The position numbers were made by a program, and so were the translations under genes. The notes under the pieces are model-generated. The model had not been told where the DNA came from and searched no databases. It saw nothing but the letters and a program-made list of their open reading frames with translations. This document shows positions 4,954-55,634 of a stretch of DNA of 64,000 nucleotides, piece after piece (positions within the stretch are counted from its first letter, which is position 1; each line of letters begins with the position of its first letter). Source of the DNA: Shinella zoogloeoides (lineage in GTDB: Bacteria; Pseudomonadota; Alphaproteobacteria; Rhizobiales; Rhizobiaceae); NCBI RefSeq assembly GCF_020883495.1, contig NZ_CP086612.1, positions 124,001 to 188,000 of the forward strand. The letters are read 5' to 3'.

Positions 4954-6860
4954 CAGAATGTCGCCTTCAGTCCCGCGAAGGCCGTCAGGCCCGGCGTGTT
5001 GAAGCCGAAGACCTCGCGGTAGTCCCGGTCGAACAGGTTGTCGATGCGGCCATAGGCCTCGACGGTCTCGTTGACCTTGAAGCTGCCGCCGACATTGACC
5101 AGCGTGTAGCCGCCGAGCGTCACGCGCGGCGGCAGGGTGCTGGCGAAGACGCGGTCCTCCGCCGCCCCGTTGAACAGCGCCTCGACAAAGACCCGCGCCC
5201 GGTCGTCGTAGAAGGCATAGGCCGCGTTCAGCGAGCCGGAATGGCGGGGCCGGCGGGTTTCGGCAAGGCGCGCGCCGCCGGCGACTTCCTGCTCGCTCGC
5301 ATCGGTGTAGGTATAGGAGGCCGTGGCCGTCAGGCCGTTGAAGAAGTCGACGGTGGCGGAAACCTCGACGCCCTGCCGCAGGCTTTCGCCGCCCATGTTG
5401 ATCGGCCGGTAGAGGCCGGGCGAGATCTGCGTGGAGGAGATCTCGTTCTCCAGGTTCTGGTTGAAATAGGTGACGTCGATCACCAGCCCGCCGTCGAAGA
5501 AGCGCTTCTCCACGCCGATATCCCAGCCGAAGCTCTCCTCGGGCTTGAGGTTCGGATTGCCGACGAAGCTGCCGGGGAAGAAGCCGTATTGCTCGGTGAA
5601 GGTGGGGTTGGTGACGCCGGTGCCGACGGAAGCGTGCAGGCGCGTCTCCATCTCGGGCACCTGCCATGCAGCGCTGGCGGTCCAGGTCGTGGCATCGGCG
5701 AAGGTGTCGTTCCAGTCCTGCCGCAGGCCGCCGTTGATGAAGAGCTGGTCGAAGAACTCGCCGCGATATTCGCCGATCGCCGCGTGGGTGTTGCGGCTGA
5801 AGGTCGTCGTATACTGCGACGGCGCGTAAGTCTCGCGCTGCCATTCGTAGCCGGCGGTCAGTTGATGCACCTGATTTTCCAGGTCCTCGTAGCGATAGGA
5901 GGCCTGATAGGCGGCGTTGTAGCGGTTGCCCTCGCTCGAACTGTCGCCGAACAGGGCGGAGTGGTTGAAGCTGCGCATGTCGCTGGCCGCAAGCCGGGCC
6001 TTCTGCGTCAGCGCGCCGTCGAGCGCGGTGTTGGCAATGCCGATGGAGCCGTATAGCTCGCGGTCGTCCTGATAGTCGTTGACGTCGTAGGTCTCGGCGG
6101 TCATGAAGTCCTGCTCGTCGAGATCGGTGCGCCGGTCGACGAGACGCAGCGTGCCGTCGACGGTCGTCTCGGGAGAGATGTCCGCCGAGAACCGGCCGTT
6201 GAACGTGCTGTTGCGCGCGCCGTCGTCCTCCGCGCCGAGATCGGAAATGTCGAAGCCGCGGCTGCGCCGCATGGAGCCGGACAGCGCATAGTCGAAATTC
6301 TCGCCGCCGCCGCGCGTCGCGAGCGCGCCCATCAGCGTGCCGTCGCTGCCGACCTCGGTCTGCGCGGTCGATTTCCTCGAGCCGCGCTCGCCCTTGCGGG
6401 TGGTGATGCTGATGACGCCGGCCATGGCGTTGGCGCCCCAGAAGGTGCTCTGCGGCCCGCGCAGGATCTCGATGCGCTCGATGTCCTCGGCGACGAGGCC
6501 GCCGAAATCGAATTCGCCGCGGGTGTGGTTGCTCGCCTCCACGCCGTCGATCACGACGAGCACCTGATCGCTCTCCGCGCCGCGCATGCGCACCTGCGTC
6601 AGGCCGCCGACGGAGCCGGCGCGCGACACGGCAAGGCCGGGCACCAGCCGCAGCGCATCCGAAACGTAGCGGACCCTGTTCTTCTCCATCTGCTCGCCGG
6701 TGACGACCGTGACGGCGCGCCCGGATTTCTCAAGCTCCACGGAGGTCAGGCCGTCGGTGACGACGACCTGTTCCAGTTCGGTCGGGGCCTGGTCCTCGGC
6801 AAGGACGGGCTGGCAGAAGGCGATGGCGAGCAGGCCGGTTCCTGCAAGGCGGTTTCTCAT
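4953..6860 (-). CDS. btuB: TonB-dependent cobalamin receptor
   Basis: 635 residues, close to the usual BtuB length. The signal peptide ends near VLA-ED. A TonB-box-like segment (LEQVVVT) follows, then the plug domain with VPGLAVSRAGSVGG and the segment RMRGAESDQVLVVIDG, then a long beta-barrel ending in an aromatic residue (LKATF). The protein would carry cobalamin across the outer membrane using TonB energy. The start ATG at 6860 is preceded by GGGGGGAAAT, a good ribosome site, and lies about 90 nt downstream of a classic B12 riboswitch. It is the first gene of the btuBFCD operon. Confidence 0.88.
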   Translation of the reverse strand: MRNRLAGTGLLAIAFCQPVLAEDQAPTELEQVVVTDGLTSVELEKSGRAVTVVTGEQMEKNRVRYVSDALRLVPGLAVSRAGSVGGLTQVRMRGAESDQVLVVIDGVEASNHTRGEFDFGGLVAEDIERIEILRGPQSTFWGANAMAGVISITTRKGERGSRKSTAQTEVGSDGTLMGALATRGGGENFDYALSGSMRRSRGFDISDLGAEDDGARNSTFNGRFSADISPETTVDGTLRLVDRRTDLDEQDFMTAETYDVNDYQDDRELYGSIGIANTALDGALTQKARLAASDMRSFNHSALFGDSSSEGNRYNAAYQASYRYEDLENQVHQLTAGYEWQRETYAPSQYTTTFSRNTHAAIGEYRGEFFDQLFINGGLRQDWNDTFADATTWTASAAWQVPEMETRLHASVGTGVTNPTFTEQYGFFPGSFVGNPNLKPEESFGWDIGVEKRFFDGGLVIDVTYFNQNLENEISSTQISPGLYRPINMGGESLRQGVEVSATVDFFNGLTATASYTYTDASEQEVAGGARLAETRRPRHSGSLNAAYAFYDDRARVFVEALFNGAAEDRVFASTLPPRVTLGGYTLVNVGGSFKVNETVEAYGRIDNLFDRDYREVFGFNTPGLTAFAGLKATF

Positions 6861-35314: not shown

Positions 35315-36643
35315 ATGCGCCTGCCCGTTCTCCTGATCGGCCTCTTTCTCGCCTCGCCGCTTTGCGCGGCGGAGCGGGCGGTCGCGCCGGGCGCGGGCAG
35401 CCTCGCCGCAGCCATCGCCGGGGCGTCCCCCGGCGATGTGCTGATGCTGACCGACGGGGCCTATAGCGGCCCCGTCGCCATAGACCGGCCCCTCACCATC
35501 ACCGGCCCGCGCGGGGCGGTGGTGGACGGGCAGGGGCAGGGCAGCGTCGTGACGATTTCCGCGCCCGACGTGACCTTGACGGGTTTCACCGTCACCGGTT
35601 CCGGCCGCGTCAACCAGGACCTCGATTCCGGTGTGAAGATCCTGCAAGGGGCCGACCGCGCGCGCGTGGAAAAGCTGCTCGTTACCGGCAACATGCACGG
35701 CGTCGACGTGCATGGCGGGCGGGACGCGGCGGTCGTCGCCAACGAGATCGTCGGCACCGACAGCCCGCGCATGAACGAGCGCGGCAACGGCATCTATGTC
35801 TGGAACAGCCCCGGCACGCTCTTGGAAAACAACGTCATCCGTTTCGGCCGCGACGGCATCTTCTCCAATGCCAGCGCCGACAGCATCTATCGCGGCAACA
35901 TCATGCGCGACCTGCGCTTTGCCGTGCATTTCATGTATACCCGCAACACCGAGGTTTCCGGCAACATCTCCATCGGCAACCATCTCGGCTTCGCCATCAT
36001 GTTCTCCAACAAGGCGAAGATCCTGAACAATCTCAGCCTCGGCGACCGCGAGCACGGGCTGATGCTGAACTATGCCAACAATGCCGACGTCACCGGCAAT
36101 CTGGTGCGTGGCGGCGCGCGCAAGTGCCTCTTCATCTACAACGCCCACAAGAACCTCATCTGGAACAACCGTTTCGAGGGCTGCGGCATCGGCATTCATT
36201 TCACGGCGGGGTCGGAGAAGAACGTGCTGACCGGCAACGCCTTCATCGCCAATCGCGAGCAGGTGAAATATGTCGGCACCCGCAATATGGAATGGAGCCA
36301 TGAGGGCAGGGGCAATTTCTGGTCCGATCACCCGGCCTTCGACCTCAACGGCGACGGCATCGCCGACAGCTTCTACCGTCCCAACGACCTGATGGACCAG
36401 ATTCTCTGGTCGCAGCCGGCGGCAAGCCTCCTCATCGGCTCGCCCGCCGTGCAGCTCGTGCGCTGGAGCCAGCGGGACTTTCCCGCCACGCTGCCCGGCG
36501 GCGTGCGCGACAGCGCGCCGCTGATGCGGCCCCTCACCATACCCGTCCCGCCCGACGTCCTCGCCTATGAGGCCGAGGTCGCCGGCCGCTGGGCCGAAGG
36601 AAATTACGATGACACCGACACTGACAATCTCTCGGCTCACTAA
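35315..36643 (+). CDS. nosD: NosD, periplasmic CuZ-site assembly protein
   Basis: 442 residues with a signal peptide ending near LCA-AE. The body is a right-handed parallel beta-helix of CASH/PbH1 repeats, visible as recurring V-x-G-N and short N-containing turns (VTGNMHGVDV, VSGNISIGNHLGF, VTGNLVRGG). It works with the NosFY transporter to supply sulfur for the CuZ centre of NosZ and receives copper from NosL. It begins 3 nt after nosZ and its end overlaps nosF by 35 nt. Confidence 0.93.
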   Translation: MRLPVLLIGLFLASPLCAAERAVAPGAGSLAAAIAGASPGDVLMLTDGAYSGPVAIDRPLTITGPRGAVVDGQGQGSVVTISAPDVTLTGFTVTGSGRVNQDLDSGVKILQGADRARVEKLLVTGNMHGVDVHGGRDAAVVANEIVGTDSPRMNERGNGIYVWNSPGTLLENNVIRFGRDGIFSNASADSIYRGNIMRDLRFAVHFMYTRNTEVSGNISIGNHLGFAIMFSNKAKILNNLSLGDREHGLMLNYANNADVTGNLVRGGARKCLFIYNAHKNLIWNNRFEGCGIGIHFTAGSEKNVLTGNAFIANREQVKYVGTRNMEWSHEGRGNFWSDHPAFDLNGDGIADSFYRPNDLMDQILWSQPAASLLIGSPAVQLVRWSQRDFPATLPGGVRDSAPLMRPLTIPVPPDVLAYEAEVAGRWAEGNYDDTDTDNLSAH

Positions 36644-37508
36644 ACGCTTCGGCGAGGTGGAAGCCCTGAAGGACGTTTCGCTGGTGCTGGAGGCGGGGCG
36701 GCGTGCGGCGCTGCTCGGCCATAACGGCGCGGGCAAGTCGACGATGATGAAAATCATCCTCGGCCTCATTTCCCATGACGGCGGCGCGGTCTCGGTCTGC
36801 GGCGCTGCGCCCGGCTCGCCGGCCGCGCGGGGGCAGGTCGCCTATCTGCCGGAAAACGTCGCCTTCCACCCGGCGCTGACGGGCGAGGAGCAGGTGCGCC
36901 ACTATCTGTCGCTGCGCGGCGAAAGCCCGAAACAGGCTATGACGCTGCTGGCCCGCGTCGGGCTGGAAAAGGCCGCGCGCCGCAGGATCGGCACCTATTC
37001 CAAGGGCATGCGCCAGCGCGTGGGCCTTGCCCAGACGCTGATCGGCCGCCCGCGCCTTCTGGTGCTGGACGAGCCGACCTCCGGCCTCGACCCGGTGTCG
37101 CGCCGCGATTTCTACGACCTGCTCGACGGCCTTTCCGCCGAGGGAACCGCGATCCTGCTCTCCTCCCACGTCCTGACCGAAGTGGAAGCCCGCACCGACA
37201 GCATCCTCATCCTTTCCGGCGGTGCGCTGGTGGCGGAGGGCACGCTGGCGGAGCTGCGCGCCCGCGCAGCGCTGCCCGTCGCGCTTCTCGCCCGCCCGGC
37301 GGAGGGCCATGCGCCCGCGCTGGCGGCCGCCTTTCCGGAAGCCTCCACCGGGCCGGACGGCCTGCTTCGCCTCTCCTGCGCGCAGGCGGAAAAGCTGCCG
37401 CTTCTCGCCCGCCTCACGGCGCTCGGCGGCGCGCTCGCCGATCTCGAGGTGATCCCGCCGAGCCTCGAGGACATCTACAGCCATTTCAGCCGGAGGGACG
37501 GACAATGA
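36609..37508 (+). CDS. nosF: NosF, ATP-binding subunit of the Nos maturation ABC transporter
   Basis: 299 residues. Walker A GHNGAGKS near residue 38, signature YSKGMRQR and Walker B LLVLDEPTSGLDP. A ~90-residue C-terminal extension after the ATPase core is normal for NosF. It drives NosDFY in CuZ assembly. The ATG at 36609 lies 35 nt inside nosD and the stop overlaps nosY by 4 nt. Confidence 0.93.
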   Translation: MTPTLTISRLTKRFGEVEALKDVSLVLEAGRRAALLGHNGAGKSTMMKIILGLISHDGGAVSVCGAAPGSPAARGQVAYLPENVAFHPALTGEEQVRHYLSLRGESPKQAMTLLARVGLEKAARRRIGTYSKGMRQRVGLAQTLIGRPRLLVLDEPTSGLDPVSRRDFYDLLDGLSAEGTAILLSSHVLTEVEARTDSILILSGGALVAEGTLAELRARAALPVALLARPAEGHAPALAAAFPEASTGPDGLLRLSCAQAEKLPLLARLTALGGALADLEVIPPSLEDIYSHFSRRDGQ

Positions 37509-38326
37509 GCCGCATCCTCGCCACGGCGGCCAGCGAATTCCGCATCGCCTTCCGCAACCGCTGGGTCTCGATCGCGACCGGCATGATGGTGCTGTTCGCG
37601 CTGGTGCTCGCCGCCGCGGGCGCAGCGCCCACCGGCGATGTCGGTGTCGACCGGCTCTCCGTCACGGTCGCCTCGCTCACCTCGCTTGCCGTCTATCTGG
37701 TGCCGCTGCTGGCGCTGCTGATGAGCTTCGACGCGGTGGCGGGCGAGGTGGAGCGCGGCACGCTGCCGCTGCTTCTGACCTATCCCGTCTCGCGCCTCGA
37801 AATCCTGCTCGGCAAGCTGGCCGCGCATCTGGCGATCCTCGCGCTCGCCGTCACGCTCGGCTATGGCGCGGCCGCGCTGGTGGCCGTGCTGTCCGATCCG
37901 GCGGCAATCGCCGGCCTTGGCGCGCTGTGGCGGCTGATCTGGTCCTCGGTGCTGCTGGGCGCGACCTTCCTCGGTGCGGGTTATGCGCTCTCCGCGCTGG
38001 CGCGCCGTCCCTCGGGGGCGGCGGGCTTCGCCATCGCCCTCTGGCTCGTCGCGGTGGTGCTCTACGACCTTGCGCTCCTCGCGCTGATCGTCACCGACGG
38101 GGGCGGAGCCTTCACGACGCAGGCGTTGCCCGTGGCGCTGCTGGCCAACCCGGCCGACGCCTTCCGCGTCTTCAACCTTTCCGCCGCCGAGGCCGTGGCG
38201 GTGGCCGGCGGCATCGGCGGGGCGGCAAGCGCCATCCCGCTCTGGCAATCGGCGGCCTCACTCTTCCTCTGGCCGCTCCTCGCCATCATGCTCGCCGTCA
38301 GCGCCTTCCGGAAGGTGACGCCATGA
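37505..38326 (+). CDS. nosY: NosY, membrane subunit of the Nos maturation ABC transporter
   Basis: 273 residues with about six hydrophobic segments of the ABC-2 type. An N-terminal amphipathic stretch (ASEFRIAFRNRWV) is followed by helices, the segment AVAGEVERGTLPLLLTYPVSR, and a last helix near the C terminus. It forms the transmembrane part of NosDFY. Overlaps of 4 nt link it to nosF upstream and nosL downstream. Confidence 0.92.
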   Translation: MSRILATAASEFRIAFRNRWVSIATGMMVLFALVLAAAGAAPTGDVGVDRLSVTVASLTSLAVYLVPLLALLMSFDAVAGEVERGTLPLLLTYPVSRLEILLGKLAAHLAILALAVTLGYGAAALVAVLSDPAAIAGLGALWRLIWSSVLLGATFLGAGYALSALARRPSGAAGFAIALWLVAVVLYDLALLALIVTDGGGAFTTQALPVALLANPADAFRVFNLSAAEAVAVAGGIGGAASAIPLWQSAASLFLWPLLAIMLAVSAFRKVTP

Positions 38327-38907
38327 GACACCGTGTTCTCCCCCTGCTGCTCGCGGCGGCCCTCACGCTGCTTTCCGCCTGCAAGGAAGAGGTGGCGCAG
38401 AATACCGCGCCGCAGGACATGACGCCGGAAACCCTCGGCCATTACTGCCAGATGAACCTGCTGGAGCATCCCGGCCCCAAGGCGCAGGTCTTCCTCGAGG
38501 GCAGTTCCGCGCCGTTGTTCTTCAGCCAGGTGCGCGACGCCATCGCCTATATGCGCGCGCCCGAGCAGGTCGCGCCGATCCTCGCCGTCTATGTCAACGA
38601 CATGGGCCGGGCGGGGGCGACATGGGAAAAGCCCGGCGACGGCAACTGGATTCCCGCCGCCGCTGCCTTCTATGTCGTCGGCTCGGCGCGCGAGGGCGGC
38701 ATGGGCGCGCCGGAGACGGTGCCCTTCTCCACCCGGGAAAGCGCTGAGGCCTTCGCCCTCACGGAGGGCGGCCGGGTGCTGGCGCTTGCCGATATTGCCG
38801 ATGACATGGTTCTCGCGCCGGTGGAGACCGGCGGGGACCCGGGGAGCGAGGACGACGCCGATTTCGACGGTCGCCTGCGCGCCCTTCCCAACAAAGCCGG
38901 AGGTTGA
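38323..38907 (+). CDS. nosL: NosL, copper chaperone lipoprotein
   Basis: 194 residues. The signal ends in the lipobox LLSAC with lipidated Cys20. HYCQMNL a little further on supplies the Cys and Met that bind Cu(I) in NosL. It delivers copper to NosD/NosZ at the periplasmic face of the membrane. The acidic C-terminal tail (GSEDDADFDG) lies beyond the usual domain. It overlaps nosY by 4 nt. Confidence 0.92.
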   Translation: MRHRVLPLLLAAALTLLSACKEEVAQNTAPQDMTPETLGHYCQMNLLEHPGPKAQVFLEGSSAPLFFSQVRDAIAYMRAPEQVAPILAVYVNDMGRAGATWEKPGDGNWIPAAAAFYVVGSAREGGMGAPETVPFSTRESAEAFALTEGGRVLALADIADDMVLAPVETGGDPGSEDDADFDGRLRALPNKAGG

Positions 38908-38910
38908 ACC

Positions 38911-39822
38911 ATGGCCCTGACCCGCCGCCGCCTGATCACGATTTCCGCCGCAATGGCGCTGCTGCCCGCCGTCGCCCGCGCGGGGCGGGGAACCACCCGC
39001 CAATGGACCGGGCAGGCGCTCGGCGCGCGCGCCTCCATCCGGCTCGACCACCCGGACGGCGAGGCCATCGCCGCCCGCGCCATGGCCGAGATCGACCGGC
39101 TGGAGAACATCCTCAGCCTCTACCGGCCGGAAAGCGCCCTGTCGCGGCTGAACCGCGACGGCCATCTCGACGCCCCGCCCTTCGAATTGCTGGAATGCCT
39201 GTCGCTCGCCGGCGCGGTGCATCGCGCAAGCGGCGGACGGTTTGATCCGACCGTGCAGCCGCTCTGGGCGCTCTGGGCCGAGGCCGCCGCGAACGGCGGG
39301 CGGCCCGATGCCGGAGCCGTCGAGGCGACGCGCCGCCGGACCGGCTGGGACAAGGTGCGCCTCGACGCGGCGGCCATCGCCCTTTCGCCCGGCACGGCGC
39401 TGACGCTGAACGGCATCGGCCAGGGCTATGTCGCCGACCGCGTCGCCGCGCTGCTGGAAGCCGAAGGGCTGACCGACATTCTCGTCGACACCGGCGAGCT
39501 GCGCGCCCTTGGCGGCGCGCCGGACGGCGGGGACTGGCCGGTTCGGCTGGAAACCGGCGAACGCCTGCGGCTGCGCCAGCGCGCGCTCGCCACCTCCGCC
39601 CCCCTCGGCACGACCTTCGATCAGGCCGGGCGGGACGGCCATATCCTCGACCCCGCGACCGGGCGGCCGACGCCCGCGCAATGGCGCGCCGTCTCGATCT
39701 CCGCCCCCTCGGCGGCCATCGCCGACGCGCTGGCGACCGCCGCCTGCCTCGTCTCCGACCGGGCGGGGATAGACGCCATGGCCGCATCCTTCGACGGCGC
39801 GCGTGTCGAGGCGTGCGTCTGA
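38911..39822 (+). CDS. nosX: NosX, ApbE-type FAD:protein FMN transferase
   Basis: 303 residues. An N-terminal Tat-like TRRRLI motif and signal lead to an ApbE domain: ALGARASIRL, LSLYRPESALSRLN, FDPTVQPLWALW, LNGIGQGYVADRV and DTGELRALG, the last including the metal-binding area. It attaches FMN to the NosR threonine in the periplasm. Placement at the end of nosRZDFYLX is the alphaproteobacterial order. It begins 3 nt after nosL. Confidence 0.92.
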   Translation: MALTRRRLITISAAMALLPAVARAGRGTTRQWTGQALGARASIRLDHPDGEAIAARAMAEIDRLENILSLYRPESALSRLNRDGHLDAPPFELLECLSLAGAVHRASGGRFDPTVQPLWALWAEAAANGGRPDAGAVEATRRRTGWDKVRLDAAAIALSPGTALTLNGIGQGYVADRVAALLEAEGLTDILVDTGELRALGGAPDGGDWPVRLETGERLRLRQRALATSAPLGTTFDQAGRDGHILDPATGRPTPAQWRAVSISAPSAAIADALATAACLVSDRAGIDAMAASFDGARVEACV

Positions 39823-39859
39823 GGCGTCTTCGGCCTCTGCGTCCAGCGCATTCTCCACA

Positions 39860-39960
39860 GAGTTTGCGCTGGAACAAACTCCGGACAAAGAAACCGGCCC
39901 CGCGGCCTCCTCCCTGACCGGGAGCGTTGACATGCTCCCCGCGCGATACTCTACATGTAG
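39860..39960 (+). promoter_or_regulatory. nrdD control region with FNR-like site, promoter and NrdR-like palindrome
   Basis: The 326-nt gap between nosX and nrdD holds several signals. GAGTTTG (39860-39866) and CAAACTC (39875-39881) are perfect 7-bp arms around 8 bases and contain TTG-N8-CAA (39864-39877), an FNR-family-like site. GGGAGC (39920-39925) and GCTCCC (39934-39939) form a second inverted repeat that could end the nos message. TTGACA (39927-39932) could be a -35 element. CTACATGTAG (39951-39960) fits the core of the NrdR box. From 39961 to 40148 only a short GGCCGCG/CGCGGCC hairpin (40081-40096) is seen. Confidence 0.4.
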
Positions 39961-40148
39961 TCGTCACGACGATTTGAATCGCAAGATGATGTGGTTTCAA
40001 AGGTCGGGCGCTTCGGCTGGGCCAGCGCCGGGAAACCTCTCGTGACACCGTGAACGTCCCTGGGCGAAGACCCGGCGGTCGGCCGCGCACGCGGCCGGTT
40101 CCGCATGCGCGTGCCTTCGCCCTGCTTGAACCCAAAGAAGGTGTGCCG

Positions 40149-42194
40149 ATGCCCGTGCTGTCCGTTTCTCCTCCCGATACGTCCTCGCAAGCCGCCCTGC
40201 CGGAAACGGTCGTCAAGCGCGGCGGCGCGGCGGCCGCCTTCGATGCCGGCAAGATCCGCTCCGCGCTCGCGCGGGCGGGGCAGGCGACCGGCGAATTCGG
40301 CGGCGAGGAAGCCGGCCGGCTTACGGGCGAGGCGGTCAAGGTCATCGCCCATCGCTTCTGCGGGAAGGCGCCGCATATCGAGGAGATACAGGATATCGTC
40401 GAGCAGGTGCTGATCGCGGCCGACCGCGCCGTCACCGCGCGCGCCTATATCGTCTATCGCGAGAAGCGCGGGCAGGCGCGGGCCGACCGCAAGACGGTGG
40501 TCGACGTCGCCGCCTCCATCAACGAATATCTCGACCGGAGCGACTGGCGCGTCAACGCCAACGCCAATCAGGGCTATTCGCTCGGCGGGCTGATCCTCAA
40601 CCTGTCCGGCAAGGTCGTCGCCAATTACTGGCTGTCGCATGTCTATCCGCCGGAAGTCGGCGAGGCGCACCGCGCGGGGGATATCCATATCCACGACCTC
40701 GACATGCTGGCGGGTTACTGCGCCGGCTGGTCGCTGCGCATGCTGCTGGCGGAGGGGCTGAACGGCGTGCCCGGCAAGGTGGAGGCCGGGCCGCCGAAGC
40801 ACCTGTCGAGCGCCGTCGGCCAGATCGTCAATTTCCTCGGCACATTGCAGAACGAATGGGCCGGCGCGCAGGCCTTCAGCTCCTTCGACACCTATATGGC
40901 GCCGTTCATCCGCAAGGATCGGCTTACCTATGGCGAGGTGCTGCAATCCATGCAGGAGCTGATCTACAACCTCAACATCCCCTCGCGCTGGGGCACGCAA
41001 ACGCCCTTCACCAACCTCACCTTCGACTGGACCTGCCCGGAGGATCTTCGCGAAGAGGTTCCGGTCATCGCCGACGAGGCGATGGACTTCACCTATGGCG
41101 ATCTCCAGCCCGAAATGGACATGATCAACCGCGCCTATATGGAGGTCATGACGAAGGGCGACGCCATGGGGCGCGTCTTCACCTTCCCGATCCCGACCTA
41201 CAACATCGCCCCGGACTTTCCGTGGGACAGCGAGAATGCCGAGCGCCTCTTCGAGATGACGGCGAAATACGGCCTGCCCTATTTCCAGAACTTCATCAAT
41301 TCCGAGCTGAAGCCGAACATGATCCGCTCGATGTGCTGCCGGTTGCAGCTCGACCTCACGGAACTGCTCAAGCGCGGCAACGGCCTGTTCGGCAGCGCCG
41401 AGCAGACCGGCTCGATCGGCGTCGTCACCGTCAATTGCGCCCGGCTCGGTTATCTCCATCGCGGCGACGAGGCCGGCCTTTTCCGCCGCCTCGACGCGCT
41501 GCTGGAGATCGGCCGCGACAGCCTGGAGATCAAGCGCAAGGTGGTGCAGCGCTACATGGACGACGGGCTGTTTCCCTATAGCAAGCGCTATCTCGGCACG
41601 CTCGGCAATCATTTCGCCACGCTCGGCGTCAACGGCGTCAACGAGATGATCCGCAACTTCACCGCCGATTGCGAGAACATCACGACGCCCTGGGGCCATG
41701 CCTTCGCGGTGCGCCTGCTCGATCATGTGCGCCTGCGCATCCGGGAGTTCCAGGAGGCGACCGGCAACCTCTTCAATCTGGAGGCGACGCCGGCGGAAGG
41801 CACGACCTATCGCTTCGCCAAGGAGGATCGCAAGCGCTATCCCGCCATATTGCAGGCCGGCACCGACGAGAACCCCTATTACACCAATTCCAGCCAGCTT
41901 CCGGTCGGCTTCACCGACGATCCGTTCGAGGCGCTGGAGCGGCAGGACGACTTGCAGCGCAAATATACCGGCGGCACGGTGCTGCATCTCTATATGGGCT
42001 CGCGCCTGTCCTCGGGCGCGGCCTGCAAGAAGCTCGTGCAGCGCGCGCTGACCCGGTTCCACCTGCCCTATATCACCGTCACGCCGACATTCTCGATCTG
42101 CCCGACACACGGCTATCTCGAAGGCGAACACGCCTTCTGCCCGAAATGCGATGCCGAACGGCTCGCAGCCAAGCGGCGCGCCGCCGCGAACTGA
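40149..42194 (+). CDS. nrdD: Anaerobic ribonucleoside-triphosphate reductase, class III, lacking the glycyl-radical segment
   Basis: 681 residues. An ATP-cone (about 20-110) opens with VVKRGGAAAAFDAGKIRSAL; the catalytic ten-stranded barrel includes DIHIHDLDMLAGYCAGWSL, NIPSRWGTQTPFTNL and SMCCRLQLDL. Near the C terminus CPTHGYLEGEHAFCPKC supplies three Cys of the zinc site. The protein then stops after DAERLAAKRRAAAN without the RVxGY glycyl-radical loop that ends ordinary NrdD. That loop is encoded by the next small gene, 17 nt downstream. It reduces ribonucleotides without oxygen using a radical installed by NrdG. ATG at 40149 is preferred; an upstream GTG frame has no family similarity. 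Confidence 0.92.
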   Translation: MPVLSVSPPDTSSQAALPETVVKRGGAAAAFDAGKIRSALARAGQATGEFGGEEAGRLTGEAVKVIAHRFCGKAPHIEEIQDIVEQVLIAADRAVTARAYIVYREKRGQARADRKTVVDVAASINEYLDRSDWRVNANANQGYSLGGLILNLSGKVVANYWLSHVYPPEVGEAHRAGDIHIHDLDMLAGYCAGWSLRMLLAEGLNGVPGKVEAGPPKHLSSAVGQIVNFLGTLQNEWAGAQAFSSFDTYMAPFIRKDRLTYGEVLQSMQELIYNLNIPSRWGTQTPFTNLTFDWTCPEDLREEVPVIADEAMDFTYGDLQPEMDMINRAYMEVMTKGDAMGRVFTFPIPTYNIAPDFPWDSENAERLFEMTAKYGLPYFQNFINSELKPNMIRSMCCRLQLDLTELLKRGNGLFGSAEQTGSIGVVTVNCARLGYLHRGDEAGLFRRLDALLEIGRDSLEIKRKVVQRYMDDGLFPYSKRYLGTLGNHFATLGVNGVNEMIRNFTADCENITTPWGHAFAVRLLDHVRLRIREFQEATGNLFNLEATPAEGTTYRFAKEDRKRYPAILQAGTDENPYYTNSSQLPVGFTDDPFEALERQDDLQRKYTGGTVLHLYMGSRLSSGAACKKLVQRALTRFHLPYITVTPTFSICPTHGYLEGEHAFCPKCDAERLAAKRRAAAN

Positions 42195-42211
42195 ACCGAG
42201 AGGAAACGACC

Positions 42212-42391
42212 ATGTCAGACCGCATCGAAACCGAGATCGAAATCGCGCTCAGCGACGACGAGCGCCAGCCCTGCGAGGTCTGGACCCGCGTGATGGGCTA
42301 TCATCGCCCGGTCTCCTCCTTCAACCTCGGCAAGAAGGGCGAGCACAGGGAGCGCCGGTTCTTCCGTGAAGCGCGTGCCGCGCTCCGCTGA
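42212..42391 (+). CDS. Separate glycyl-radical segment of class III ribonucleotide reductase
   Basis: 59 residues, MSDRIETEIEIALS... then CEVWTRVMGYHRPVSSFN and GKKGEHRERRFF. The CEVxxRVxGYxRPV...GKK pattern is the C-terminal radical loop of NrdD; Gly29 is the expected radical glycine and Cys21 may supply the missing zinc ligand. The gene has its own ATG and ribosome site AGAGGAAACGACC and lies in a different frame from nrdD. The acidic N-terminal 20 residues are not part of a normal NrdD. The NrdG gene begins 26 nt before its end. It would dock on NrdD in trans, comparable to YfiD/GrcA replacing the damaged end of pyruvate formate-lyase. Its frame is open upstream, so a frameshifted fusion cannot be excluded. 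Confidence 0.85.
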   Translation: MSDRIETEIEIALSDDERQPCEVWTRVMGYHRPVSSFNLGKKGEHRERRFFREARAALR

Positions 42392-43001
42392 GCTGAGGGT
42401 CGGCGGGCTTTCCCGGCTGTCCACCTGCGACTGGCCGGGCGAGCTCGTGGCGACCGTCTTCTGCCAGGGCTGCCCCTGGGCCTGCGGCTATTGCCACAAC
42501 CCGCATCTCATTCCGCCGAATGCCGGGACGGAGATCGAGTGGCCGGAGGTCCTGTCGTTCCTGGAGAGCCGCCGCGGCCTGCTCGACGGCGTGGTGTTTT
42601 CCGGCGGCGAGCCGACCTTGCAGGCGGCTTTGCCGGAGGCGATGCGCGCCGCGCGCGCGCTCGGCTTGCGCATCGGCCTGCACACGGCCGGTCCCTATCC
42701 GGGCCGGCTTGCCGAGGTGCTGCCGCTGATCGACTGGATCGGCTTCGACGTCAAGGCGGCCTTCGCCGAATACGAGGCGATCACCGCCGTCGCCGGCAGC
42801 GGTGGCAAGGCGCGCGAAAGCCTGCGGCTGGTGCTGGCAAGCGGCGTTTCGGCCGATATCCGCACCACCGTGCATGACGCGCTGCTCGACCGCGCCGCGC
42901 TCGCCCGCCTTGCGGACGACCTCGACGCGCTGGGCGTGAGCGGGCACCGGCTGCAGGCCTTTCGCGCGGCCGGCTGCACCAATGCGGCATTGCTGGGGTA
43001 G
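42366..43001 (+). CDS. nrdG: Anaerobic ribonucleotide reductase activating protein (radical SAM)
   Basis: 211 residues. CQGCPWACGYCHNP holds the radical-SAM CxxxCxxC cluster motif, and VVFSGGEPTLQ the SAM-binding GGE motif. It generates the glycyl radical on the NrdD system using SAM and a 4Fe-4S cluster. GTG at 42366 is the start, inside the 59-residue glycyl-radical gene; the conserved GGLSRLSTCDWPG begins soon after, so the start cannot be far downstream. Translational coupling to the radical segment it activates is notable. Confidence 0.92.
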   Translation: MKRVPRSAELRVGGLSRLSTCDWPGELVATVFCQGCPWACGYCHNPHLIPPNAGTEIEWPEVLSFLESRRGLLDGVVFSGGEPTLQAALPEAMRAARALGLRIGLHTAGPYPGRLAEVLPLIDWIGFDVKAAFAEYEAITAVAGSGGKARESLRLVLASGVSADIRTTVHDALLDRAALARLADDLDALGVSGHRLQAFRAAGCTNAALLG

Positions 43002-43031
43002 GGGAATAGTTGGCCCTGCTGCGGGCCACAG

Positions 43032-43063
43032 AAAAAACCCTCCCCCGGAAAGCCGGGGGAGGG
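43032..43063 (-). terminator. Rho-independent terminator of katG
   Basis: CCCTCCCCCGG (43038-43048) and CCGGGGGAGGG (43053-43063) form an 11-bp stem with a 4-nt loop. On the minus strand it is followed by six T residues (43037-43032), 16 nt after the katG stop. It can also serve nrdG on the plus strand less efficiently. Confidence 0.9.
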
Positions 43064-43079
43064 TCGTATCTACCCGCCG

Positions 43080-46344
<3,265 letters not shown>

Positions 46345-55260: not shown

Positions 55261-55634
55261 ACCTCGAAGACATCCTCGAAGGATTCCGGGAAACTCTGGC
55301 GGGCGACCTTCTCGTCTATGACGAGCATGGCCTCGTAGGAGAGCGGGTCGAAATCCTTGTCCGCCGCCACGACCTCGCGGCCGAACAGCAGGTTGAGGCG
55401 CGCGGCGTCGAGATTGCCGCGCTCGAAAGGCTCGTCGCCGAAATGGTGCCAGAGGGCATGCAGGAACGCCGCGTCGATGCGGTGCTCGGCCGTGCCGGGC
55501 CGGGCGCGGCGGGGCAGCGCCTTGATGGGCGTCACCCCGCGCGGATTGGCGCGGCGAATGGTGAACTGGACCCCCGTGCCCGGCATGCCGGACGGAAAGC
55601 CCCGGTGTTTGGTCATGTCGGGCAGGTTCGCCAT
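55257..55634 (-). CDS. Hypothetical protein
   Basis: 125 residues that I do not recognise. The N-terminal third is basic and Pro/Gly-rich (TIRRANPRGVTPIKALPRRARPG). The remainder is more acidic and could be helical (AAFLHALWHHFGDEPFERG, then YEAMLVIDEKV and an acidic ESFEDVFEV end). No signal or membrane segment. It lies 13 nt after the stop-side start of the glutathione-transferase gene region (same strand, downstream), so the two are probably cotranscribed. Its end overlaps the convergent ATPase gene by 4 nt. Start ATG at 55634 follows CAGGAGAG. Confidence 0.6.

Follow-up and report, generated by a model that had tools for sequence, protein, structure and literature searches.

Textbooks present class III ribonucleotide reductases (RNRs) as enzymes that store a radical in their own polypeptide, and a locus of Shinella zoogloeoides raises the question of whether such an enzyme can also be made of two chains, with the radical glycine carried on a small protein of its own. 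In the stretch of 64,000 nucleotides that we analyzed (the window; positions 124,001 to 188,000 of contig NZ_CP086612.1), a reading of the sequence alone had proposed that a class III RNR is split and that its radical glycine sits on a separate 59-residue protein. Both the open reading frames and the complementary matches of their products to the Pfam family PF13597 bear this out, and we confirm that the split is real.

Three genes follow each other in one direction in the window: nrdD, the gene for the 59-residue protein, and nrdG. The first of them (40149-42194, forward strand; ATG at 40149, TGA at 42192-42194) encodes a large chain of 681 amino acids with an ATP-cone (PF03477), the barrel, an MCCR motif, and a zinc ribbon. 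PF13597 matches this chain over profile positions 2-531 of 562 (573.9 bits) and TIGR02487 over positions 2-556 of 581 (464.7 bits; cut-off 326.35). Near its end, the residues C651, H654, C664, and C667 (CPTH...CPKC; 42099-42149, forward strand) are the predicted ligands of a zinc site, and the protein stops only 14 residues past the last of these cysteines, in agreement with the earlier description of an NrdD that ends behind its zinc motif without the glycyl-radical loop. A zinc site of the form CxxxHx6CxxC is described for the NrdD of T. maritima in the available text of PMC4493059. The large chain carries SMCCR, i.e., MCCR rather than SCCR, and the GLFGSAE stretch in its finger-loop region contains a phenylalanine; in a phmmer alignment to 4coi, Ile359 of T. 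maritima aligns with a leucine of the large chain, and the phenylalanine stands next to it.

The gap between the two chains (42195-42211, forward strand) holds a ribosome-binding site, GAGAGGAAACGACC, behind which the small gene starts, 17 nt past the nrdD stop and in another frame (42212-42391, forward strand; ATG at 42212, stop at 42389-42391). An own ATG, an own ribosome site, and a different frame had thus been described correctly, while the interval of 42126-42391 originally given for the small gene begins inside the zinc motif and has to be corrected to 42212-42391. Its 59-residue product contains CEVWTRVMGYHRPVSSFNLGKKGE, including the predicted radical glycine, Gly29 in RVMGY (codon at 42296-42298, forward strand), i.e., a radical-glycine loop of RVxGY type that is found by sequence on a separate small chain. 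Among Pfam families, PF13597 is its sole match at E up to 1 (profile positions 530-562, 31.4 bits; Pfam cut-off 26.2), with the Gly_radical family absent, and TIGR02487 matches at positions 550-579 of 581 with a score that its short length keeps far below the model cut-off. The matches of large and small chain are complementary, so that the two parts jointly cover the PF13597 profile and likewise that of TIGR02487. The radical SAM activase gene nrdG (42366-43001, forward strand) was rightly expected to start within the small gene, since its GTG candidates at 42366 and 42375 both lie there and a third at 42447 would be late; we use 42366, with 42375 also possible. Its product matches TIGR02495 (NrdG2) with 188 bits (cut-off 131.15).

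The split class III RNR arrangement is widely conserved among proteobacteria and also occurs in some other phyla, and at most loci seen the small gene, of ca. 60 codons, stands between nrdD and nrdG. When the small chain was used as query, 5932 proteins of about its length matched at E up to 0.01, some of which are probably gene ends at contig borders. As had been suspected, small nrdD-annotated proteins are already in the databases under generic names; a 63-residue Bradyrhizobium protein among the 120 matches listed, for example, is called anaerobic ribonucleoside-triphosphate reductase. The small chain also matches 27 plasmid records, and in the two for which we read the gene order from annotation and DNA, pNK6c of B. 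diazoefficiens and pHG1 of C. necator H16, nrdD, a small "anaerobic ribonucleoside triphosphate reductase" gene, and nrdG lie in the same order, i.e., strain H16 carries the split form on its plasmid. Among the best 80 of 575 relatives (named genome records), picked by likeness to the split large chain of the window and thus not a random sample, 76 are split, three are fused, and one is cut by a contig end. The split relatives span alpha-, beta-, and gammaproteobacteria, Geobacter, and metagenome-assembled genomes labelled Acidobacteria, Elusimicrobia, and Actinomycetes. An evenly drawn survey of Pseudomonadota found matches to NrdD in 57 of 398 genomes, comprising 13 split forms, each with both parts present, 43 full-length fused forms, and one weak partial match; an extra stand-alone loop was absent from all 43 genomes with fused NrdD in a search at E up to 0.001. 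In the order to which the window genome belongs, for which a search for stand-alone loop proteins had been suggested, NrdD is rare, with four of 150 genomes (its own included) having it and all four of them split.

Fused forms are common too: besides the 43 in the survey, 32 of 120 listed homologues of a fused relative have the loop, and 88 do not. The three Geobacter-type loci that we saw are split, all five Coriobacteriia-named proteins among the matches listed lack the loop, and nine proteins with Desulfovibrio-type names are fused. Geobacter and Coriobacteriia live without air, so that in this sample an aerobic way of life does not by itself account for the split. A few variants stand apart. 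In a genome of 0.9 Mb (G345, locus L122), the small chain is very divergent, having SMGFIRP where VMGYHRP is usual; two TAA stops separate it from nrdD, with which it shares a frame. Two fused NrdD proteins of another clade (L117 in G495 and L120 in G427) have ca. 53 extra residues between profile positions 531 and 533, the same point at which other enzymes are split. At locus L082, an incomplete start of a radical loop (ERTRCESW...) lies near 6072 ahead of the complete one in the same frame and looks like a partial duplication.

The relationship between split and fused enzymes was followed in trees of 108, 112, and 69 rows, all of them quick trees with one support value and thinned by hand. 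The C-terminus was cut for the 112-row tree (in 104 of its rows) and the 69-row tree, and the latter was also made without long or far rows. Some of the fused rows come from metagenomes, and the rows labelled P#### (18 split and 18 fused in the 112-row tree) are proteins without known neighbours, for which the label "split" says no more than that they lack the loop. The 112-row tree contains 10 changes of state between fused and split, at least five of which are forced by well supported branches, and the 69-row tree contains eight, at least six of them forced; a single clade of all split rows is rejected on the 69-row data (p-AU 6e-58). In these quick trees, the split and fused forms have replaced each other repeatedly, at least five times. 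From a first tree, we had taken three fused rows to be late re-fusions inside one split clade, a reading that was dropped once wider sampling showed repeated switching; the ancestral state is not evident from the trees. Repeated joining and parting of the same parts in the same order usually indicates joint function, which argues that both chains belong to a single working enzyme.

Taken together, we consider it very probable that the locus encodes an obligate two-chain class III RNR, of which both the complex and the radical are inferred. The small chain would be translated from its own gene and dock against the zinc ribbon of the large chain, and its loop would be pushed through the barrel to bring Gly29 close to the active site, a task that falls to the covalent C-terminus in the NrdD of T. 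maritima or T4. NrdG would then take a hydrogen atom from Gly29, the resulting radical would start reduction in the large chain as in NrdDh enzymes, and large and small chain would behave as one enzyme. Their joining is optional and has been made or broken repeatedly in evolution. Structure prediction for the small chain alone gave low confidence (mean pLDDT 63.5, pTM 0.29), which fits, without demonstrating, a loop that is shaped only inside the barrel. As a proxy for the two-chain complex, a fused relative was modelled with middling confidence (mean pLDDT 77.7, pTM 0.71); the model has pLDDT values of 73-83 by block over the loop and best matches NrdD structures, with T. maritima 4u3e aligning over model residues 111-706. 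Residues 121-149 and 392-418 of this model, the latter around the finger loop, are under 50 pLDDT, so the active-site geometry is not predicted by it.

The split NrdD locus is the only one for NrdD in the 4.85 Mb genome according to a PF13597 search, and a PF02867 search found only two nrdE-type genes, both of which we read as parts of class Ib nrdE-nrdF pairs, and no class II enzyme. On this basis, oxygen-independent synthesis of deoxynucleotides probably depends on the split NrdD alone. The two nrdE-nrdF pairs lie ca. 94 kb apart (G000:C2:200915-202471, L139, and G000:C2:295369-296925, L140); their NrdE proteins are identical over 718 residues though the genes differ at 33 bases, and their NrdF proteins show four differences in 329 residues. 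Around the locus, an Rfam search of 36000-46000 gave no credible riboswitch upstream of nrdD (two matches, to eukaryotic families, fall below the curated score), and no FNR-type box was found upstream of nrdD, the single match in the window being at 55522 with about two expected by chance. A KatG catalase-peroxidase gene (reverse strand) and the gene of an OxyR-like LysR regulator (forward strand), which scores below NCBI's OxyR cut-off, adjoin nrdG at 43080-46344. Upstream of nrdD, the region 37505-39822 has weak matches to an ABC permease and ApbE, and we presume it to be the end of a nos cluster with an ABC permease, a NosL-like lipoprotein, and an ApbE-like protein.

Physiological evidence comes from other carriers of the split form. 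A published anaerobic phenotype of C. necator H16 relates to its nrdD locus, and the same genome paper lists Rmet_5137 and Rmet_5139 of strain CH34 while leaving 5138 unnamed (both from the available text of PMC2864759); CH34 DNA matches the small chain, and 5138 may be the small gene. For Z. mobilis, the accessible part of PMC10746277 reports nrdA and nrdF as conditionally essential with air and not without it, and our searches of the strain AN0101 genome gave a single NrdD, which is split, and a single PF02867 gene that we take to be nrdA. The physiology of Cupriavidus and Zymomonas thus implies, but does not prove, that the split class III enzyme supports growth, the phenotypes being those of whole operons or of other strains of the same species rather than of the small gene.

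Could the two reading frames nonetheless yield a single chain, or the split be an artifact? We assembled 93 split loci, 92 of them with adjacent genes, a set that includes near relatives so that counts are not independent events. Left out of this set and of the trees were L001, L002, and L005-L010, which duplicate loci already present, L047, a near copy of L046, and L072, which reaches a contig end; L037, whose large chain ends in unknown bases, and L082, with its odd double small gene, were kept in the 93. A programmed frameshift or stop read-through producing one chain could be imagined for loci such as G139 and L012, where a single stop separates the two parts and the frame is the same, but the small gene lies in relative frame 2, 0, and 1 in 42, 25, and 25 of the 92 adjacent pairs, the spacing from nrdD runs from -17 (overlap) to 298 nt, and the in-frame cases have a stop codon. 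Within one genus, the small gene is out of frame in one genome (G030) and in frame behind a TAA in another (G139). In G444 (L121, C4:20500-36500), the small gene is paired with nrdG ca. 9 kb from nrdD, and between them lie several other genes, presumably for proteins resembling a CRP/FNR-type regulator, HemN, and a U32 peptidase. The small genes also have their own start signals: 90 of 93 begin with ATG, and 91 of 93 are preceded by four or more bases of AGGAGG versus ca. 21% in shuffled sequence, a contrast that is exaggerated because starts were chosen partly by Shine-Dalgarno score. Junction diversity and the separation in G444 thus speak against frameshifting and read-through, which we rejected as a general mechanism and deem extremely improbable, as well as against sequencing or assembly error. 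The latter, or a decaying pseudogene, had only the unusual architecture itself in its favor and has next to no chance of being right for the family, since dozens of independent genomes are split at different junctions, start and stop signals are in place, and the loop is under purifying selection; sequencing error and frameshifting, which had been named as what would overturn the split, therefore do not apply to the family. Pooled over 23 close pairs, pN/pS is 0.07 in the loop but 0.53 in the N-terminal extension, which shows strong purifying selection on the former and drift in the latter. All 93 small proteins have the same C, E, M, N, G, K, E, and R around the loop, although the search pattern did not require these residues; it did require R, G, R, and P of RxMGYxRP, which explains part of their constancy. 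The extension itself had been described as a 20-residue acidic stretch not seen in unsplit enzymes. Its acidity stands (net charge is negative in 79 of the 93 small proteins, with a mean of -2.2), but its novelty does not hold for the last eight or so residues (LxDDERQP): linkers of fused enzymes match this part (DEERTPCEVW, ENRRQACEVW, LPEKRQPCEVW), leaving only about the first dozen residues as extra.

If two separate proteins are made, they might still be inactive or otherwise employed, and the accessible literature indeed gave no assay of such an architecture. We regard this as very improbable given that the zinc, MCCR, and radical-loop motifs are conserved, that no other oxygen-independent RNR was found by PF02867 and PF13597 in the window's genome or that of Z. 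mobilis (with the PF02867 genes taken as class I), and that the anaerobic phenotypes cited above have been published (available text of PMC2864759 and PMC10746277). A different question is whether selection for repair has made the small protein an exchangeable carrier of the radical, i.e., a 59-residue subunit that is replaced after oxygen has cut it at the glycine, in the way of YfiD. The logic would be the same, the genes are separate, and in G444 the small one stays with nrdG where nrdD is elsewhere; many carriers of split NrdD are presumably facultative, such as denitrifiers and Zymomonas, which would count in favor. Yet the three Geobacter-type loci and the five of five listed Coriobacteriia names belong to anaerobic organisms, the nine Desulfovibrio-type names are fused, and our sample shows no clean link with oxygen. 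In the strict sense, the proposed analogy to YfiD/GrcA as a spare part is not supported, since no copy of the loop was found other than that on the small protein and no intact NrdD was found beside it, making it a subunit rather than a spare. YfiD, in turn, repairs a pyruvate formate-lyase that is complete until oxygen cuts it, and for other glycyl radical enzymes such spare parts are considered possible without having been validated (both in the available text of PMC8683613). We therefore judge selection for repair to be unlikely. Unlikely as well, and slightly more so, is a mobile radical carrier, in which NrdG would charge a free or NrdG-bound peptide that docks into the catalytic chain and leaves it again. 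Such a carrier would need its gene to be linked with nrdG. A motif scan of the 93 loci found nrdG no more than 500 nt behind the small gene in 75, with a possible start overlapping the small gene in 58 of these 75, and nrdG is paired with it in G444; of the other loci, two had contigs too short for the scan and 16 were missed, at least one of them (L121, where nrdG is present) through an over-strict pattern. If the mobile carrier were true, one activase and a small pool of peptides could serve or repair many NrdD molecules.

Under the preferred reading of an obligate two-chain enzyme, class III RNRs with a separate loop would provide a system for watching the installation, docking, and exchange of a glycyl radical, and the radical could be added in trans with labelled or altered peptides of ca. 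60 residues. They would let one ask directly whether the radical site moves or exchanges between enzyme molecules, and the natural set of split and fused forms lets one ask why fission and fusion recur. A practical consequence concerns annotation: the large NrdD products of C. necator H16 and Z. mobilis lack the radical glycine, so that no active enzyme should be obtained when the large product is expressed with only NrdG.

Among known systems, the class I NrdA of phage Aeh1 likewise has its catalytic chain in two genes, cut by a mobile element; both it and split NrdD are cut RNR chains, the former being of class I and from a phage. The nrdDG genes of C. necator H16 were reportedly described by Siedow et al. 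in 1999 (J Bacteriol 181:4919), in a paper that was beyond our reach and may mention the small gene; elsewhere in the accessible literature, we found no functional description of a split class III RNR. A split of class III goes unmentioned in the available text of PMC4390871, PMC9531940, PMC11226230, PMC9669993, PMC8365446, PMC3019208, PMC2795772, and PMC4493059. In the single-chain class III RNRs of T4, E. coli, T. maritima, and P. copri (PDB 1h78, 4u3e, 8p23), the loop is covalent, whereas here it is a separate protein; a covalent radical loop lies outside the definition of the class. With the NrdDh4 subclass (RNRdb2), the large chain shares the MCCR motif, while the NrdDh4 phenylalanine stands beside rather than on the Ile359-aligned residue of our large chain, at a position that the available text of PMC4493059 calls uncertain. 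Section 11 of that paper describes NrdDh4 by its catalytic part without mentioning a split there. The position of the radical cysteine in this subclass is under debate. The split class II enzyme NrdJa/NrdJb is also an RNR of two gene products that act together, but differs in being of another class and in having no radical loop (available text of PMC9669993). YfiD/GrcA, finally, resembles the small chain as a small stand-alone protein with a radical-glycine loop that, in our case, would be activated by the enzyme's own radical SAM activase, yet YfiD belongs to the Gly_radical family, related to the C-terminus of pyruvate formate-lyase; it is also larger (ca. 14 kDa) and adds to a complete enzyme (available text of PMC8683613).
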